Source: SAR202 cluster bacterium
Lineage (GTDB): Bacteria; Chloroflexota; Dehalococcoidia; Lucifugimonadales; GCA-2712585
Assembly: GCA_016872285.1 (NCBI GenBank)
Contig: VGZZ01000028.1
Location: 1-34,504 of the forward strand
Direction: 5' to 3'
DNA length: 34,504 nt
Within the stretch, counting starts at the first letter, position 1; every line of letters starts with the position of its first letter. The position numbers and the translations under genes are program-made. This document shows positions 2,856-34,183 of the stretch, in pieces. Under the pieces are notes generated by a model, which was not told where the DNA came from, did no database searches, and saw only the letters and a program-made list of their open reading frames with translations.

Positions 2856-3854
2856 ATGAGTAAGAAGGCGAGGGTGTTTGTGACTCGGAGGGTGCCGGAG
2901 GAGGCCCTTCGACTACTGGCTCAGGGCGGGCTCCCCCAGTCGGTGGAGGTGGAGGTGTGGCCGGAGGAGGAGCCGCCGCCGCCGGAGGTGCTGCGGGAGA
3001 AGGTATCTTCGATAGAGGGATTGTACACGAATATTATGGACAGGGTTGACGATAGCGTGCTGGCGGCGGGGAAGAGCCTGAGGGTGGTGAGCCAGATGGC
3101 GGCGGGGCTGGACAACATCGACGTGGGGGCGGCGACTCGGCGGGGGATACCGGTGGGGTATACGCCGGGGATTGTGGCGGCGGCGACGGCGGACCAGACG
3201 TTTGCGCTGCTGCTGGCGTCGGCGAGAAGGGTGTCGGAGAGCGGGAGGTGGGTGAGGGCGGGGAACTGGAAGATAGCGTTCCACCCGATGTACTGGCTGG
3301 GGTGGGAGGTGCACGGGTCGACGATAGGGATTGTGGGGATGGGGAAGATTGGGATGGAGGTGGCGAAGCGGGCGAGGGGGTTCGATATGCGGGTGCTGTA
3401 TTGCAGCAGGCGTCGGAACGAGGAGGCGGAGAAGGTGTACGGGGCGGAGCGCCGGGAGCTGGCGTCGTTACTCAGGGAGAGCGATTTTGTGAGCTTGCAC
3501 GTGCCGCTGACGCCGGAGACTCGTGGGCTGGTGGGGGAGAGGGAGCTTCGGTCGATGAAGAAGACGTCGATACTGGTGAACGCGGCGCGGGGGCCCGTCG
3601 TCGACGCAAAGGCGCTGTACCGGGCGCTGAAGGAGGGGTGGATAGCGGGGGCGGCGCTGGATGTGACGGACCCGGAGCCGATGCCGGCGGGGGACCCGCT
3701 GCTGACGCTGGAGAATTGCGTGGTGGCACCGCACCTGGGGAGCGCGACGGTGGGGACGCGGACGCGGATGGCGGTGGCGGCTTCCAAGAATTTGTTAGCG
3801 GGGTTGAGGGGGGAGAGGCTGCCGCTGTGTGCGAACCCGGAGGTCTACGATTAG
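2856..3854 (+). CDS. D-isomer-specific 2-hydroxyacid dehydrogenase, paralogue with a repeat-encoded insert
   Basis: 332 residues, clearly homologous end to end to the protein at 378-1367. The nucleotide-binding loop GIVGMGKIG is at 158-166. Catalytic residues are Arg245 (NAARGPVVD), Glu274 (TDPEP) and His293 (PHLGSAT). Aligned to its paralogue, it carries about five to eleven extra residues near 19-29 (RLLAQGGLPQS). These are encoded by a CCCTTCGACTACTGGCTCAG-type palindrome at about 2904-2938, the same repeat found in rpe and the fakA tail. The insert sits in the N-terminal substrate domain, away from the catalytic residues, so activity is probably kept. ATG 2856 follows GAGGTCAAAG. Confidence 0.9.
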   Translation: MSKKARVFVTRRVPEEALRLLAQGGLPQSVEVEVWPEEEPPPPEVLREKVSSIEGLYTNIMDRVDDSVLAAGKSLRVVSQMAAGLDNIDVGAATRRGIPVGYTPGIVAAATADQTFALLLASARRVSESGRWVRAGNWKIAFHPMYWLGWEVHGSTIGIVGMGKIGMEVAKRARGFDMRVLYCSRRRNEEAEKVYGAERRELASLLRESDFVSLHVPLTPETRGLVGERELRSMKKTSILVNAARGPVVDAKALYRALKEGWIAGAALDVTDPEPMPAGDPLLTLENCVVAPHLGSATVGTRTRMAVAASKNLLAGLRGERLPLCANPEVYD

Positions 3855-4138
3855 GGGAACGTGCCGCAGCGGCAGGAGGCATTGTTGCACGAGTCCTCTT
3901 GTCCAGTGTTTCACCCTCACCTTATATCCTCTCCCATCAAGGGAGAGGAAGTTTTTGTGGCGGTGGCGGCTTCCAAGAATTTGTTAGCGGGGTTAAGGGG
4001 AGAGAGGGTGCCGTTGTGCCAATCCAGAAGTCTACGATTAGGGAAACGTGCCGCAATGTTAGGAGGCATTGTTGCGCCTGTCGTTGGTGGCAGGGTTTCA
4101 CCCTCACCTTAGTCCTCTCCCATCAAGGGAGAGGAAAG
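3771..4138 (+). repeat. tandem duplication of the dehydrogenase gene 3' end plus repeat A
   Basis: The segment from 3771 (last 28 codons of the dehydrogenase, its stop, the AACGTGCCGCAG stretch and a family A hairpin) recurs from 3960. The offset is 189 bases. The second unit still translates as AVAASKNLLAGLRGER but loses the stop region, so it is a diverged gene fragment. Each unit ends in the CTCTCCCATCAAGGGAGAG hairpin (about 3929-3950 and 4115-4137). Confidence 0.8.
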
Positions 4139-5640: not shown

Positions 5641-5710
5641 CAGTGATAAAGAAACGTTGGTGCCAGGGTTTCACCCTCTCTTCTATTCTCCCCCATCAAG
5701 GGGGAGAAAG
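5641..5710 (+). repeat. family A palindromic repeat
   Basis: GTGATAAAGAAACG leader, GCCAGGGTTTCACCCTC core, then a hairpin of TTCTCCCCC and GGGGGAGAA around ATCAA. It lies between the amidase stop and the thiD 3' end. Confidence 0.75.
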
Positions 5711-6916: not shown

Positions 6917-7660
6917 TCACTCGGGCCATGATTCACCGTGGTAGGCCATTTGGAAGAAGAGGTATTCATAGCGGAGCGTGTCGCGGAAGATGCGGCGGAG
7001 GCGGGGGATGTTGGGGTTGGGGGTGGAGTCCAGGGTGCGGCGCATCCAAGCGACGAAGGTGGAGAGTTCGTCGCCGGCGTGGATTTCGATCCACTGGCGG
7101 TAGAAGGGATCGGAGGGAAGGCCCCTCCCCAGGCCCCGACCCCCCATCCTAACCTTCCCCCTCAAGGGGGGAAGGGACTTGTCGGATGCCGGCGAGCCTT
7201 TCACGAGACGCTGGGACCAGTCGACGTAGACCCATTCGGCGCAGAGGAGGGCGGTGAGGATGTCGGGGAAGCTGCCCTGGAGGGCGATGTTTTTGAGGAG
7301 GTCGCCGAAGGCGCGGGTGGTGGGGAGGGGTTCGAGGGCGCGGACCTGGGCTTGGGTGAGGCCCATCTTGTCGAAGGCGTCTTGGAAGAGTTTTTCCTCG
7401 CCGCCGAGGACGGAGTGGAGGAAGGCGACGAGGGGCCGGGCGTGGTGGAAGTCGGGGGCTTTGGCGGCGCCGAGGGTGAGGAGGTAGACCCAGTCGCGGA
7501 GGAAGAGGTGGTCTTGCTGGAAGTAGCGCTGGAATTTGTCCCAGGGGAGGGAGCCGTCGCCGAGTTCCAGGACGAAGGGGTGGGTGACGGTCCTTTCCCA
7601 GAGTGGGGCGGCCTCTTTTTTGAGGGTGGAGGTGAGGGAGGGTTGTCTGCGGGTGGGCAT
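6917..7660 (-). CDS. tenA: TenA family aminopyrimidine aminohydrolase with a repeat-encoded insertion
   Basis: 247 residues from the ATG at 7660; a TTG at 7678 would add six. TenA (thiaminase II) hydrolyses 4-amino-5-aminomethyl-2-methylpyrimidine to HMP, salvaging thiamine breakdown products. Numbered from the TTG start: an Asp in YFQQDHLFLRDW (56), the likely nucleophile Cys146 (ALLCAEWVY) and Glu238 (RYEYLFFQMAY). Residues about 164-188 (ASDKSLPPLRGKVRMGGRGL...) have no counterpart in the family, which runs straight on to DPFYRQWIEIHA. They are encoded by a palindromic repeat at about 7119-7194. Its edges share TCGGA, a possible 5-base target duplication. The frame survives, so the protein may be active with a loop. 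Confidence 0.9.
   Translation of the reverse strand: MPTRRQPSLTSTLKKEAAPLWERTVTHPFVLELGDGSLPWDKFQRYFQQDHLFLRDWVYLLTLGAAKAPDFHHARPLVAFLHSVLGGEEKLFQDAFDKMGLTQAQVRALEPLPTTRAFGDLLKNIALQGSFPDILTALLCAEWVYVDWSQRLVKGSPASDKSLPPLRGKVRMGGRGLGRGLPSDPFYRQWIEIHAGDELSTFVAWMRRTLDSTPNPNIPRLRRIFRDTLRYEYLFFQMAYHGESWPE
7119..7194. repeat. palindromic repeat inserted in frame within tenA
   Basis: CCCCCATCCTAACC followed by the hairpin CTTCCCCC/TCAA/GGGGGGAAG; the same hairpin type recurs at about 32167-32202. It replaces nothing: tenA homology continues on both sides. TCGGA occurs at both edges. Confidence 0.7.
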
Positions 7661-7741: not shown

Positions 7742-7820
7742 CCTGGCGGACGGAGCGTAGTGCTAGTGTTTCACCCTCACCTTCATCCTCTCCCATCAAG
7801 GGAGAGGAAAGAAGAAGGGG
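7742..7820 (+). repeat. family A repeat, near-identical to 34105-34183
   Basis: 79 bases starting CCTGGCGGACGGAGCGTAG, then GTTTCACCCTCACC and the CTCTCCCATCAAGGGAGAG hairpin, ending AAAGAAGAAGGGG. It differs from the copy at 34105-34183 by one base. It lies between thiY and tenA. Confidence 0.9.
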
Positions 7821-7873: not shown

Positions 7874-7925
7874 GACCCTTCGACTGCGTCCCGACGAGTA
7901 CATCGGGACTTCGCTCAGGATGACA
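7874..7925. repeat. family B repeat
   Basis: GACCCTTCGACTGCGTCC ... GGGACTTCGCTCAGGATGACA, eight bases from the thiY stop codon. Confidence 0.8.
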
Positions 7926-8990: not shown

Positions 8991-9061
8991 CAGTGATGAA
9001 GGATTGTGCCTCTAGGGTTTCACCCCTCACCTTAATCCTCTCCCACAAGGGGAGAGGAAAG
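8991..9061 (+). repeat. family A repeat in the thiX-thiY gap
   Basis: CAGTGATGAAGGATTGTGCC leader, GGGTTTCACCCCTCACC, then the CCTCTCCCACAAGGGGAGAGG hairpin arms. The 457-base thiX-thiY gap also holds a family B copy at 9167-9210 and the AGGGCGAGGTAACC palindrome at 9262-9288. No gene lies in it. Confidence 0.8.
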
Positions 9062-9261: not shown

Positions 9262-9288
9262 AGGGCGAGGTAACCTCGCCCCTACATT
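9262..9288. repeat. family E palindrome (AGGGCGAGGT/ACCTCGCCCCT)
   Basis: AGGGCGAGGT and ACCTCGCCC pair around the centre; CCTACATT follows. The same 27 bases occur at 23282-23308, and a GGGCGGGTCT/AGGCCCGCCCCTACA relative is at 26331-26357. Confidence 0.8.
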
Positions 9289-10210: not shown

Positions 10211-10273
10211 GCCCGTTTTGTGGAGCCAGGGTATCACCCTCATCCTTCGCCTTCTCCCATCAAGGGAGAAGGA
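10211..10273 (+). repeat. family A repeat between thiZ and thiX
   Basis: CCCGTTTTGTGGAGCCAGGG, TATCACCCTCATCC, then the CCTTCTCCC/ATCAA/GGGAGAAGG hairpin. Confidence 0.8.
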
Positions 10274-12947: not shown

Positions 12948-13020
12948 TGACTGTGATGGCCGTGTTGTTGTGTTTAGGGTTTCACCCATCCTACACCTTC
13001 TCCCACGAGGGGAGAAAGGA
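12948..13020 (+). repeat. family A repeat upstream of npdG
   Basis: GTGATGGCCGTGTTGTTG leader, AGGGTTTCACCCATCC, then CCTTCTCCCACGAGGGGAGAAAGG. The rest of the gap (13021-13192) holds a weak family B relative (ACGTTGAGGTTCTTATACG) and nothing else I recognise. Confidence 0.75.
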
Positions 13021-15623: not shown

Positions 15624-15652
15624 TTGACTACAACAACATGTTGTAGTAGTAT
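15624..15652 (+). promoter_or_regulatory. promoter with a 12-bp palindromic operator before zinc-ribbon/argJ
   Basis: TTGACT (15624-15629), 17 bases, TAGTAT (15647-15652). The spacer contains the perfect palindrome ACAACATGTTGT (15633-15644), set in CTACAAC/GTTGTAG arms. Transcription would begin close to the ATG at 15661, giving a nearly leaderless mRNA. The palindrome would let a repressor block the promoter; it does not resemble the E. coli ARG box. Confidence 0.5.
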
Positions 15653-17034: not shown

Positions 17035-17410
17035 GCTATGGCAACGGTATCTTGTCTACTTAGGGGTGGCGATGAAAGAAGCCCCGCCCTATCATCCCGA
17101 CCCCCCTCTCTAACTCTCCCTCCTTCGGCAAGCTCAGGACAGGCTCTCAAGGGGGGAGAGGACCAGATAGGGAGTGCCAGAGGACTGAGGCTAGCCAGAT
17201 GGAATGTATCCATAGGGATTCACCCCTCATCCTGCGCCTTCTCCCACAAGGGGAGAAGGGATTTCCTTGATGCCAGTCAGTGCTTTCATGCACATCAAAC
17301 CTTCATTAACGCTAGTCCTCTTAAATGGGTAGAGTATCTGAGAGAGAGTAGCGCTCAACCCTATAGGGAATACTCTCAAGAAGATAGAACTGACATCAGG
17401 CTTTGCGGGA
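17035..17410. repeat. argJ-argB gap with repeats
   Basis: Holds CCCCCCTCTCTAACTCTCCC with a family C piece (CCTTCGGCAAGCTCAGGACA) and closing arm GGGGGGAGAGG (17100-17163). A family A copy follows at 17190-17261 (CCCCTCATCCTGCGCCTTC, hairpin CTTCTCCC/GGGGAGAAG). From 17270 to 17410 nothing is recognised. No gene is seen. Confidence 0.65.
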
Positions 17411-22865: not shown

Positions 22866-23293
22866 TGGTGGGACTCTTAGACGCTGCGTCCCAGCGGGTC
22901 AGGGCGCTATCGAACAGGATGGGCACGGATGTGTGGTGGCGCCGGTGCATATCGGCGGCGCTGATTAACGGGGTGGTGTGGCTTACGCCGCCGCCTATTC
23001 ACCTGATATCCCTGTTCATGCCGTTCTTTAGCGGGTATTCGATAGCTTTGTCGCGCACGACGAAAGGGCTGGTGGAATCGCTGCAGATTGGGGTGGTGAT
23101 GGGGATGACGCTGGGGGGCGCGGCGATGGCGGCGGGGCTGGCTACGATTGGGGTCATATCCTGGCTCCTGTCTGGGATACCGACGATTTATTTAATCGTA
23201 GCCGTGTCTATAGGAGGAGGCATTGGGATTTACACGGGGACTGCGGCGTGCGCGGGGGCGCTGGTGGCGGCGGGACGAGAAAGGGCGAGGTAA
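22865..23293 (+). CDS. small membrane protein of unknown function
   Basis: 142 residues from the ATG that overlaps the previous stop codon (TGATG). About three to four hydrophobic helices, with many Gly and Ala (MTLGGAAMAAGLATIGVISW and IYLIVAVSIGGGIGIYTG). The stop TAA is supplied by the family E palindrome at 23282-23308, so the last four residues (RERA) are repeat-encoded. Function unknown. Confidence 0.6.
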   Translation: MVGLLDAASQRVRALSNRMGTDVWWRRCISAALINGVVWLTPPPIHLISLFMPFFSGYSIALSRTTKGLVESLQIGVVMGMTLGGAAMAAGLATIGVISWLLSGIPTIYLIVAVSIGGGIGIYTGTAACAGALVAAGRERAR

Positions 23294-23409
23294 CCTCGCC
23301 CCTACATTGCGGGGAAGCGTGGTTACGGAAGATTGAGCGAGGGTTGTAATGGGACCAGATCCCTCGACTACGTGCCGACGAGTACACCGTTACTACGCTC
23401 GGAGTGACA
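23282..23409. repeat. family E and family B repeats after the membrane-protein gene
   Basis: The 27-base E copy (23282-23308) is identical to 9262-9288. A B copy follows at 23358-23409 (GATCCCTCGACTACGTGCCG ... CTCGGAGTGACA). Confidence 0.8.
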
Positions 23410-26380: not shown

Positions 26381-26562
26381 CTTTGATAAAGGGTCGTTGA
26401 GCTAGGGCTTCACCCTCACCTTAGTCCTCTCCCATCAAGGGAGAGGAAAGGGAAAGGAAGGCGTCGGGTGGCTTTAATACCAGTATTGTGGTGCTAGAGT
26501 ATCACCCTCATCCTTCGGAAGAAGGGCAGGCCTTAACCCTCTCCAATGAAGGGAGAGGAAAG
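26381..26562 (+). repeat. two adjacent family A repeats before argG
   Basis: The first (26381-26450) has CTTTGATAAAGGGTCGTTGA, CACCCTCACC and the CTCTCCCATCAAGGGAGAG hairpin. The second (26478-26562) has TATTGTGGTGCTAGAG, ATCACCCTCATCC, an extra CGGAAGAAGGGCAGG and then CCCTCTCCAATGAAGGGAGAG. No gene lies here. Confidence 0.8.
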
Positions 26563-27819: not shown

Positions 27820-27896
27820 GCCAGCCAGATGGGGCCTGGTCAGCGGGGTTTTACCCCTCATCCTGCACCTTCTCCCACAAGGGGAGAAGGAGGGAA
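27820..27896 (+). repeat. family A repeat after argG
   Basis: AGCCAGCCAGATGGGGCC, CGGGGTTTTACCCCTCATCC, then CACCTTCTCCC/ACAA/GGGGAGAAGG. Close to the copy at 17190-17261 and, in reverse, to the DUF559 leader at 30664-30702. Confidence 0.8.
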
Positions 27897-30364: not shown

Positions 30365-30537
30365 CCTTGGTGGTAGTGGTTCACCCTCACATTAGTCCTC
30401 TCCCATCAAGATGGGTGTTGCTAATTCTCCCGACAGGAAGAGGAAAAGAAAACGGAGACGACTGGCAGTGATAAAGTATTGTGGAGCCAGGGTTTCACCC
30501 TCTCTTCTGTTCTCCCCCATCAAGGGGGAGAAAGGGT
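30365..30537 (+). repeat. two family A repeats, the first with an interrupted hairpin
   Basis: Copy one (30365-30415) has GGTTCACCCTCAC and CTCTCCCATCAAG, but the closing arm is displaced by ATGGGTGTTGCTAATTCTCC; GAAGAGGAAAAG follows. Copy two (30466-30537) has GTGATAAAGTATTGTGGAGCC, GGTTTCACCC and the TTCTCCCCCATCAAGGGGGA hairpin. A third piece (ATCAAGGGAGAGGAAAGAAG) is at 30590-30610. Confidence 0.8.
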
Positions 30538-30663
30538 AGAAGGGAGGCCTGGCTATGATAAGTGGCATCTTAACTAGCAACAGCCGTCATCAAGGGAGAG
30601 GAAAGAAGAAGGGAGTCTATGGGCAAGCGTTTCCAACAGAATGGGACGTGTGGACTATAAGTT

Positions 30664-30702
30664 CTCATCCTTCTCCCTTTGTGGGAGAAGGTGCAGGATG
30701 AG
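30664..30702. repeat. palindrome forming the leader of the DUF559 gene
   Basis: CTCATCC (30664-30670) pairs with GGATGAG (30696-30702), and TTCTCCC (30671-30677) with GGGAGAA (30683-30689), around TTTGT. It is the family A hairpin in reverse orientation. GAGGGGGA at its edge provides the likely Shine-Dalgarno of the ATG at 30708. Confidence 0.85.
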
Positions 30703-30707
30703 GGGGA

Positions 30708-31043
30708 ATGACTAGCGCTACGGCCCGAGCAATAAGAAAACGTCCCACTGAAGCTGAAGCCAAGCTGTGGGCGGGGTTGCGTGAATTTCGGCTGGCTGGC
30801 TACAAGTTCCGACGGCAGGAGCCTATAGGTCGCTTCATTTGCGATTTTGTATGTTTCTCGCAAAAGTTGATAGTTGAAGTTGATGGCGGCCAGCACACAA
30901 CAAATATCATCGCTGACGGTAAGAGGACTGCTTGGCTGGAAAGCCAGGGCTTCAAGGTGCTAAGGTTCTGGAACGCCGAAATCTTGAGGGATACACAGGC
31001 TGTGCTGGAAGCTATATCCAATGCCCTTAGTGGAAATGATTAA
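30708..31043 (+). CDS. DUF559 (Vsr/MTES_1575-like) endonuclease-fold protein
   Basis: 111 residues. ARAIRKRPTEAEAKLWAGLR, FRLAGYKFRRQEPIGRFICD, FVCFSQKLIVEVDGGQH and FKVLRFWNAEIL are hallmarks of DUF559, a restriction-endonuclease-like fold related to the Vsr mismatch nuclease. The acidic/Gln core D-F ... E-V-D-G-G-Q-H would bind metal. Cellular role is not established. Codon use is less GC-biased than rpe. It follows directly after a palindrome of family A and a cluster of three more copies, which is why I link it to the repeats. Confidence 0.85.
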   Translation: MTSATARAIRKRPTEAEAKLWAGLREFRLAGYKFRRQEPIGRFICDFVCFSQKLIVEVDGGQHTTNIIADGKRTAWLESQGFKVLRFWNAEILRDTQAVLEAISNALSGND

Positions 31044-32099: not shown

Positions 32100-32307
32100 A
32101 TGAATAGAGCTAAATACTCGGCAACACCATCTCCCTCTTCCCACTTTCCAAGTCAGGGGGAATTACCCCCCATCCTTTGTCCTTCCCCCTCAAGGGGGGA
32201 AGGTAAGACACACCGCAGACCCCCCTACAAGGAGAGCTTTGCCCACTCTGAACTCTCCTTCGGAAAGGGCTTGTTATCAGCGGTTACTCACTATGTTAGG
32301 GCGGCTA

Positions 32308-33813
32308 ATGCCTAAGAAAAAGACAGTGAGGATTTCTGGTCGGGAGTTGAGGGATGGGCTAGCGGCGGGGGCGCGATGTATGGAGCGGTATGCGGCGCAG
32401 GTGAATGCGCTAAACGTGTTTCCGGTGCCGGACGGCGATACAGGGACAAATATGCTGCTGACGATGAAGTCGGTGGTGGAGGGACTAGATCCTTCGACTA
32501 CGTCCGCCGATGGCGGACTCCGCTCAGGACTCGCTCAGGCTCACAAAGGCGAGCCTTCGCTCGGCTCCCACCCCGATGGAGTAGGAAGGGTGGCTCAACT
32601 CGCCGCGCGGGGGGCGCTGATGGGGGCGAGGGGGAACAGCGGGGTGATATTGTCGCAGTTTTTGTCGGGCTTTGCGCAATCGCTTAAAGACAAGGAGACG
32701 TGCGACGCCCGGGGGCTGGCGGCGGCGCTGACGGCGGGGTCGAGGGCGGCGTATTCGGCGGTGTCGAAGCCTGTGGAGGGGACCATACTTACCGTTATGC
32801 GGGAGGCGGCATCGGCGGCGGAGTCGGAGGCGTTGAAGAGTGGGGCGGACGTTATTGGGGTGTGGGAGGCGTCGCTGAAGGCGGCCAAGTCGGCGCTGGC
32901 GAGGACGCCGGAGCAACTGTCGACGCTGCGGGACGCGGGGGTGGTGGACTCGGGAGGGCAGGGGCTGGTGGTGGTGATGGAGGGGTTCCTGTGCGGGCTG
33001 AAGGGGCAGGACGTGGAGGCGGTGGAGGTGGAGATCAGCGCGCCGGCGGGAGGGCTTGCAACGATGCCGTCAGTACGAGGGGAGTACCTGGAGGCGATAG
33101 AGGGGGAGAAGTTCGGGTTTTGCACACAGTTTATGATCGAGGGGACGGGGATAGACCTGGAGGCGCTGCGGGCGTCGCTGGCGGGTATGGGGAACTCGGC
33201 GGTGGTGGTGGGCGACGCGACATTGGCGAAGGTGCATATTCACACCTTTGAACCAGACAAGGTGGTGGCGTTCGGCGGGATGATGGGCGTCACCAGCCAG
33301 GTCAAGATTGATGATATTGATAAACAGCACGTGGGCTTCCAGGCGCTGCACAAGCAGAGGAAGGAGACGCCTGCGCTGGCGGTGGTGGCGGTGGCCTGGG
33401 GAGAGGGATTCGCGAGGCTATTTCGAGACCTAGGATGCCACGAGGTTGTTGTGTGCGGGCGGACGATGAATCCCAGCGCGCAGGAGATTTTGGAGGCGTC
33501 GAAGATGACGGGGTCAAAGCGGGTGGCGGTGCTGCCGAACAACTCGAATGTGGTGCTGGCGGCGAGGCAGGCGGCGTCGATGAGCGAGGGCGTGATCCAT
33601 GTCATCGAGACGAGGACGCTACCGCAGGGGGTGGCGTCGGCGCTGGCGTACAGCCCGGACGTGTCGCCGGAGCAGGCGCTGCGGTCTATGGAGTCGGCCA
33701 AGGGCGGGGTGAAGACGCTGGAGGTTACGACGGCGGTGCGGGACTCGGTGGTGTCGGGGAGGCCGGTGAAGGCGGGGCAGGTGATGGCGCTGCTGGACGA
33801 TGTGTTGATATGA
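32308..33813 (+). CDS. fakA: FakA/YloV-type DAK2-DegV family protein, interrupted
   Basis: 501 residues from ATG 32308 (TTAGGGCGG upstream); ATG 32293 and TTG 32239 are in frame. FakA/YloV is the fatty-acid kinase subunit that works with DegV-fold FakB. Seen: NVFPVPDGDTGTNML (36-50, metal Asp42 and Asp44), then ARGALMGARGNSGVILSQFL (100-119), TILTVMREAA and DSGGQGLVVVMEG. Residues 61-90 (PSTTSADGGLRSGLAQAHK...) interrupt the DAK2 domain and are repeat-encoded. The frame stops at TGA 33811-33813, but its conserved C-terminus continues in the same frame to 34062. The product thus lacks about 80 family residues. Confidence 0.87.
   Translation: MPKKKTVRISGRELRDGLAAGARCMERYAAQVNALNVFPVPDGDTGTNMLLTMKSVVEGLDPSTTSADGGLRSGLAQAHKGEPSLGSHPDGVGRVAQLAARGALMGARGNSGVILSQFLSGFAQSLKDKETCDARGLAAALTAGSRAAYSAVSKPVEGTILTVMREAASAAESEALKSGADVIGVWEASLKAAKSALARTPEQLSTLRDAGVVDSGGQGLVVVMEGFLCGLKGQDVEAVEVEISAPAGGLATMPSVRGEYLEAIEGEKFGFCTQFMIEGTGIDLEALRASLAGMGNSAVVVGDATLAKVHIHTFEPDKVVAFGGMMGVTSQVKIDDIDKQHVGFQALHKQRKETPALAVVAVAWGEGFARLFRDLGCHEVVVCGRTMNPSAQEILEASKMTGSKRVAVLPNNSNVVLAARQAASMSEGVIHVIETRTLPQGVASALAYSPDVSPEQALRSMESAKGGVKTLEVTTAVRDSVVSGRPVKAGQVMALLDDVLI
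32487..32592. repeat. repeat insertion in frame within the DAK2 domain
   Basis: GATCCTTCGACTACGTCCGC ... GGACTCCGCTCAGGACTCGC (family B-like) followed by a second hairpin GGCGAGCCTTCGCTCGGC. The family alignment continues on both sides (MKSVVEG and AQLAARGALMG). Confidence 0.75.
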
Positions 33814-34062
33814 GCGGGAGGAGCAGGTCCTTCGGCTGCGTCCTTCTCCGAAGGACTTCGCTCAGGACTCGCTTCGCTCGGCCCCCTCCCGGGCGGGGTG
33901 GTGACGGTGTACTGGGGGGCCGGGGTGTCTGAGGGGGAGGCGAGGGAGGCCCTTCGATCCTTCGACAAGCTCAGGACTCAGGGCAGGCTCCCCCAGGGGG
34001 TTGAGGTGGAGGTGGTATATGGTGGGCAGCCGCTGTACGCGTATATCGTGTCGATAGAGTGA
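33814..34062 (+). pseudogene. severed C-terminus of the fakA frame
   Basis: After the TGA the same frame runs on without stops. A repeat-encoded part (33826-33897, GPSAASFSEGLRSGLAS) is followed by VVTVYWGAGVSEGEAREALR, another repeat (33951-33996), and VEVEVVYGGQPLYAYIVSIE to TGA 34060-34062. The last block is the typical FakA/YloV C-terminus. One TGA therefore separates it. A GTG at 33898 or 33901 could start it separately, but no Shine-Dalgarno is obvious. Confidence 0.75.
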
Positions 34063-34104: not shown

Positions 34105-34183
34105 CCTGGCGGACGGAGCGTAGTGCTAGTGTTTCACCCTCACCTTAATCCTCTCCCATCAAGGGAGAGGAAAGAAGAAGGGG
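34105..34183 (+). repeat. family A repeat, near-identical to 7742-7820
   Basis: 79 bases with a single difference from the copy 26 kb away (CCTTAATCC versus CCTTCATCC). Confidence 0.9.

Follow-up and report, generated by a model that had tools for sequence, protein, structure and literature searches.

The window, the whole 34,504-nucleotide stretch of a SAR202 cluster bacterium contig analysed here, carries on its forward strand a DUF559 gene of 111 aa (30708–31043; PF04480, E 1.6e-40) whose product has an EDxHD/Vsr-like nuclease fold. DUF559 proteins are very widespread and functionally uncharacterised. The Vsr-like fold named in the first-pass annotation was borne out by an AlphaFold2 model (pLDDT 83), for which the top PDB matches were 3hrl, a solved DUF559 structure from Neisseria gonorrhoeae, 3r3p (I-Bth0305I; E 2.6e-5) and 1vsr (Vsr; E 1e-3); HMM comparison of DUF559 with I-Bth0305I/Vsr gave 2e-5. 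In an alignment of 31 sequences of ~50% identity, residues E17, D46, E57, D59 and D70 are invariant and H63 is nearly so, which indicates that the nuclease site is under selection. By fold and conservation, E17, D46, D70 and H63 are candidate motif residues of an EDxHD endonuclease. Earlier work assigns YcjD to the PD-(D/E)XK superfamily (PMC1189080), classes DUF559 genes as an EDxHD family (PMC9403480) and reports that Caulobacter VsrA, which has a DUF559 domain, induces SOS once a cytosine methyltransferase is missing (PMC12907096); the excerpts consulted make no mention of the repeats. A role in anti-phage defence was rejected, the PADLOC match being just marginal (DpdF, E 0.005), as was identity as a phage gene, DUF559 being found in 2 of 50,697 phage records.

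The gene is preceded by a palindrome at 30664–30702, ending 5 bases ahead of the ATG, in which a perfect 9-bp inner stem (30669–30691) is enclosed by a 7-bp outer stem (CTCATCC/GGATGAG) with TGCA unpaired between them, as had been read initially. Its inner part belongs to a unit on the reverse strand (30669–30704) composed of the hairpin 30669–30691, the spacer TGCA and the tag GGATGAGGG, which lies towards the gene. The tag also makes the purine-rich GGATGAGGGGGA (30696–30710) directly before the ATG; this may be the ribosome-binding site of the gene, in which case the element end could also control it. Three further copies had been claimed just upstream. One is intact (30498–30532, forward strand; tag CCCTCTCTT, hairpin 30510–30532), whereas the others are a degenerate unit at 30384–30415, with tag and left arm retained and the right arm decayed, and a half unit at ~30589–30602 with loop and right arm only, both read from the sequence as direct repeats on the forward strand. 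The window DUF559 gene is without a downstream unit of its own.

The remaining units are dispersed along the window, all on the forward strand. The arm type TCCTCTCCC is found at 3914–3949 (tag CCCTCACCT), 4101–4135, 7774–7808, 9024–9058, 26413–26447 and 34137–34171; TTCTCCCCC at 5674–5708; CCTTCCCCC at 7141–7175 (tag CCCCCATCC) and at 32167–32203, the first unit 3' of DUF559, past the rpe gene; and CCTTCTCCC at 10237–10272, 17224–17259 and 27855–27890. A unit with a mismatched stem lies at 12984–13018 (hairpin ~12996–13018). The early estimate of about fifteen hairpins held (15–16 by the strict pattern), but their supposed occurrence in both orientations did not, as the intact PIT-type units all point the same way except that at 30669, the sole one in the reverse orientation. 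The window is a hot spot: its 34.5 kb contain ~16 strict PIT hairpins where the average density of the genome would give 2.2 (~7x denser).

The hairpins as PIT/intrastrand-triplex units

The window hairpin unit is a PIT/intrastrand-triplex unit, made up of a C-rich tag, a short spacer and a hairpin with a pyrimidine left arm and a purine right arm, for example TCCTCTCCC-ATCAA-GGGAGAGGA after the tag CCCTCACCT-TAA. The strict hairpin class was defined as YYYYYYCCC-N5-GGGRRRRRR, and the orientation of a unit was read from its asymmetric C-rich tag. By this definition the 2.61-Mb source genome (G000) contains 167 hairpins, compared with 2 for a reversed control pattern; six arm types occur there, each with its own matching tag. 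The tag is a mirror image of the pyrimidine arm, mostly with one A replacing a pyrimidine. Across loci, the match of the tag to the mirror of its own arm was 0.817, against 0.750 (sd 0.005) for shuffled arms, and among asymmetric arms the mirror match beat the direct match 64:23. The outer block could thus act as third strand of the hairpin. The units are dispersed and mostly intergenic: 93 of 142 mapped units lie outside ORFs of at least 120 aa, and the ORFs that the others overlap were found mechanically and may not be true genes.

The same arrangement of tag, spacer and hairpin, with the tag mirroring the arm, is known from the PIT elements/ITxF/TM_ECO (Hoyne 2000, Holder 2015). According to the excerpts of Holder 2015 (PMC4666352) on which we draw, PIT/triplex repeats number 23 copies in E. 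coli K-12 and the motif occurs in >260 genomes; triplex formation in vitro was demonstrated for E. coli TM_ECO as a single strand, though not for duplex or in vivo; mobility functions were never found near E. coli TM sites; the TM units were reported to be unbiased in orientation; and earlier work cited there found E. coli PIT units to be without promoter or terminator activity. TM_ECO no. 9 of the Holder list adjoins ycjD, the E. coli DUF559 gene. The features by which our results differ, namely the link to DUF559, the pairing of each of many arm variants with a separate DUF559 and the orientation by GC skew, do not appear in those excerpts of PMC4666352. A search of open-licence PubMed Central full texts likewise found no description of a link between DUF559 and repeats, though one may exist elsewhere.

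Bracketing and pairing of DUF559 genes with hairpins

We examined DUF559 genes in loci of 294 genomes belonging to the same class as the window and in 80 named loci from many phyla, the latter chosen by protein pattern only. The named loci are the best matches to the window DUF559, which leaves remote DUF559 subfamilies outside the sample. Of 104 DUF559 genes, 70% have a pyrimidine/purine hairpin within 150 bp upstream, 74% downstream and 56% on both sides, compared with 1.3%, 2.6% and none among 690 control ORFs from these loci (Fisher p ~1e-60), the hairpin definitions and the unit caller having been set while looking at these data. A lack of hairpin enrichment at DUF559 genes elsewhere had been named beforehand as one of two results that would refute the association, and enrichment is present; 12 of the 104 genes have no such hairpin within this distance. 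In the source genome, all three DUF559 genes have a hairpin at most ~100 bp upstream.

The two units at a gene stand in inverted orientation, and in most loci the tag lies towards the gene. In 68 informative loci, the inner (tag-side) 14 nt agreed in inverted register better than the outer 14 nt in 60 and worse in 8; Deinococcus is an exception, with the tags on the outer side of the hairpins. Inspected by eye, hairpins stand on one or both sides of DUF559 in Neisseria gonorrhoeae, Azospirillum and Deinococcus, and Picosynechococcus has a cyanobacterial variant with G-rich repeat blocks of different sequence. An ORF with cytosine-5 methyltransferase motif IV was found within 3 kb of DUF559 in 0 of the 80 loci, and a Vsr-methyltransferase partnership is therefore unsupported.

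Each nuclease gene is paired with a hairpin of its own. In four genomes with several DUF559 paralogues (38–57% identical), each paralogue has hairpins unlike those of the others, whereas the pair at any one gene is usually alike: arm similarity was 0.90 within a locus (47% exact), 0.75 between genomes (5%) and 0.63 between paralogues of one genome (2%). A generic host hairpin was rejected on this ground. Three hairpin types were counted in 12 genomes, a few of the copies being the DUF559 flanks themselves, and each proved to occur almost only in the genome, or the genus, that has its DUF559. The TTTCCCCC type occurs 19 times in G293 and once in G279, of the same genus; CCCCCTCCT 25 times in G293 and 5 times in G279, which carries a DUF559 with a CCCCCTCCT hairpin; and CCCTCTCCG 52 times in G056 and once in G148, with no copy of each type in the other ten genomes. 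Seven CCCCCTCCT copies crowd within ~5 kb of the cognate DUF559 (G293:C1 226.7–232.0 kb, partly in locus L245), which looks like local hopping. In the solo units of the TTTCCCCC family (L225–L239 of G293), the TAA spacer is replaced by a second small hairpin, TGTCC-TTCG-GGACA.

Copy number, orientation and insertion sites

Dependence of copy number on DUF559 presence was the other test named in advance, and it too came out in favour of the association. Across the 294 genomes, the median number of generic hairpins was 14 with DUF559 (n=86), 1 without (n=182) and 1 where the only DUF559 matches were divergent or fused (n=26); the difference between presence and absence was significant overall (Mann-Whitney p 1e-15) and in permutations within families (p 2e-4). 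As the generic pattern misses arm types with other loops, these counts are low estimates. Ten or more copies occur in 24 of the 182 DUF559-free genomes, and G004, a single-contig genome of the same family, has 55 strand-biased units with no detectable DUF559; these may be a relic or have been moved by something else.

Unit orientation was compared with local GC skew in four genomes of a single bacterial class, using pieces no longer than 20 kb. It agrees with the sign of the skew in 64 of 71 units in G000, 17 of 18 in G004, 26 of 35 in G201 and 29 of 30 in G293, giving 125 of 142 pooled and 108 of 116 where the skew is at least 0.05. Agreement also holds in 45 of 48 cases in which both neighbouring genes point against the G-rich strand. 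The skew is positive throughout the window. In Proteobacterial loci, where skew is weak, agreement was 19 of 33 for distal units; neighbouring units form outward pairs in 25 cases, inward pairs in 3 and pairs of the same direction in 20. The G-rich strand is usually the leading strand; gene-strand bias showed no correlation with GC skew in these data, so this equation rests on general knowledge. If it applies, the strand with the C-tag would be the lagging-strand template, the strand that IS200/IS605 elements target according to the abstract of PMC6006769. The GC-skew orientation suggests insertion into single-stranded DNA at replication forks, and selection after insertion could also produce such a pattern.

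One insertion can be read directly. The nuoM and nuoN genes abut or overlap in five relatives, and in G000 they are separated by a gap of ~735 bp that holds three hairpins and a DUF559 gene, so that a DUF559 cassette has been inserted between them. The TTTCCCCC solo units, set in flanks unrelated to one another, also have sharp ends and share the unit CCCCCTTTGTCC-TTCG-GGACA-TTTCCCCC-N6-GGGGGAAA-CCC. Neither the E. coli TM loci nor one G293 site followed in four genomes yielded a clean empty site for a solo unit. The E. coli adk-hemH and yjdP-phnP loci are polymorphic, the other alleles being replacements or partial deletions; at the G293 site, the unit is absent from G251, but the flank beyond the unit does not align. 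The E. coli fabI-sapF interval holds ycjD and a TM unit in ~3300 of 5375 genomes and otherwise the eef efflux operon (L113, L114, L118), so the boundary cannot be read; the eef operon at this site is described in PMC12817139, whose consulted passages do not mention the repeat.

A candidate mobile-element system and its alternatives

The first-pass annotation had likened the association to RAYT transposases and REP palindromes, and in architecture the comparison is apt: every DUF559 is flanked by inverted hairpins particular to it, and these have a dispersed family whose copies are strand-biased. Like REP/REPIN and RAYT (TnpA-REP, REPtrons), the system combines a short palindrome bearing an asymmetric tag with copies dispersed elsewhere and, as in a REPtron, with inverted copies on the two sides of the gene. 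A further likeness is that gene copies within a genome adjoin separate repeat families; in P. fluorescens SBW25 a different family stands beside each RAYT, and it was this that tied RAYTs to REPINs (PMC3116915). The parts differ. The REP enzyme is an HUH (Y1) tyrosine transposase, whereas here the protein is PF04480 DUF559 with the Vsr/EDxHD fold of PD-(D/E)XK nucleases, and the tag, instead of GTAG or CGTC, is a C-rich stretch of 9 nt that mirrors the arm (CCCTCACCC-TAA, or variants that match the arm). Because enzyme and tag both differ, the DUF559 system is not a member of REP/RAYT, though by analogy it may work like a REPtron. With IS200/IS605 it shares subterminal hairpins and a bias relative to the replication strand, but neither an HUH transposase nor TnpB is present. 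The EDxHD homing endonuclease I-Bth0305I and Vsr resemble DUF559 in catalytic-domain fold and sequence; unlike them, DUF559 is here a stand-alone domain of 111 aa without extra DNA-binding regions or a methyltransferase partner, and its gene does not lie in an intron.

We judge it likely, at roughly three chances in four, that DUF559 and the hairpins form a mobile-element system that works in the manner of REP/RAYT with unrelated parts and acts on single-stranded DNA. A more specific version, which we favour with some reserve, is that DUF559 is the missing mobility enzyme of the PIT/triplex repeats, representing a transposon class with a lone Vsr/EDxHD nuclease, ends that are made of a hairpin and a third strand and differ with the nuclease they belong to, and a route of movement via single-stranded DNA at the fork. 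The autonomous form would be hairpin-tag-DUF559-tag-hairpin, with inverted PIT units as its ends, and the non-autonomous form a solo unit of ~35–45 nt. The nuclease is envisaged to recognise and bind its cognate folded unit while that strand is single-stranded at the replication fork and to nick at or beside it; the unit or the whole cassette would then be pasted or copied into another exposed strand and joined there with the help of host replication and repair. We know of no strand-joining activity that a PD-(D/E)XK/EDxHD nuclease has of its own.

Other accounts of the association give DUF559 a smaller part. It might be a free-standing EDxHD homing endonuclease that cuts a solo hairpin, into which its gene is then copied, so that the flanks are the target and the hairpins spread by other means. 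The closest functional relative by fold, I-Bth0305I, is a homing endonuclease, and the excerpt of PMC9403480 noted above places DUF559 genes in the EDxHD family. We nevertheless regard homing as unlikely, since the flanks are inverted with tags mostly towards the gene (60:8) and are not one hairpin split in two, and since homing alone does not explain why a hairpin family almost never occurs in a genome lacking the cognate DUF559. That DUF559 is cargo caught between two units, which another enzyme or replication slippage moves, would accord with the strong folding of the units by themselves and with G004, where they persist without a detectable DUF559. The cargo is repeatedly DUF559, however, with 56% of these genes bracketed against 0 of 690 control ORFs, and divergent DUF559 genes carry hairpins of their own, which makes passive carriage distinctly improbable.

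It is harder still to see in DUF559 a house-keeping repair enzyme of the Vsr type, as proposed for Caulobacter VsrA, removing or taming hairpins or T:G mismatches and regulating or tolerating the hairpins that adjoin it. The Vsr-like fold and the SOS observation on VsrA, in the excerpt of PMC12907096, fit such a role, but genomes with a guard enzyme would be expected to have fewer hairpins and more were observed; the 80 loci are devoid of a nearby C5-methyltransferase motif ORF, and the distribution of DUF559 is patchy, with several divergent copies per genome and broken copies among them, so we hold this account to be very improbable. The position of hairpins directly before and after the coding sequence, together with the purine-rich GGATGAGGGGGA that the tag supplies ahead of the window ATG, might indicate terminators, attenuators or other RNA control elements of the DUF559 gene. 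This we find scarcely credible: many units lie away from any DUF559, orientation tracks GC skew and not the direction of neighbouring genes, and E. coli PIT units lack promoter and terminator activity in the work cited in the consulted part of PMC4666352. A regulatory hairpin was rejected on the first two of these grounds.

PIT/triplex repeats are found in hundreds of bacterial genomes, including E. coli K-12, and their origin and spread are open. The DUF559 nuclease is probably the missing mover of this common class of repeats, and linking the two gives each a testable function, in E. coli K-12 (ycjD) as well. Repeat and protein family are singly known; on condition that the activity exists, their combination would be a categorically new kind of mobile element. 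To our knowledge, nucleases of the DUF559 type are not known to drive transposition, and if DUF559 does move DNA, a nuclease family would be added to those that do. Independently of the mechanism, divergent nucleases matched one to one with divergent hairpins offer a ready set for studying the reading of folded DNA ends by a small nuclease.

The window contains further palindromes. A second dispersed palindrome unrelated to the PIT units, GGGCGAGGTNACCTCGCCC followed by cctacattg, lies at 9263–9281 and 23283–23301, and again in locus L002 at 3114–3132. A third palindromic repeat, of several lengths with common ends (ccttcgactrcGTCC ... GGACttcgctcagga), occurs at 7888–7909, 32502–32518 and 33827–33856, and the perfect palindromes AGGACTAGTCTTAGCAGACTAGTCCT and ACTACAACAACATGTTGTAGT are positioned at 203–228 and 15627–15647.
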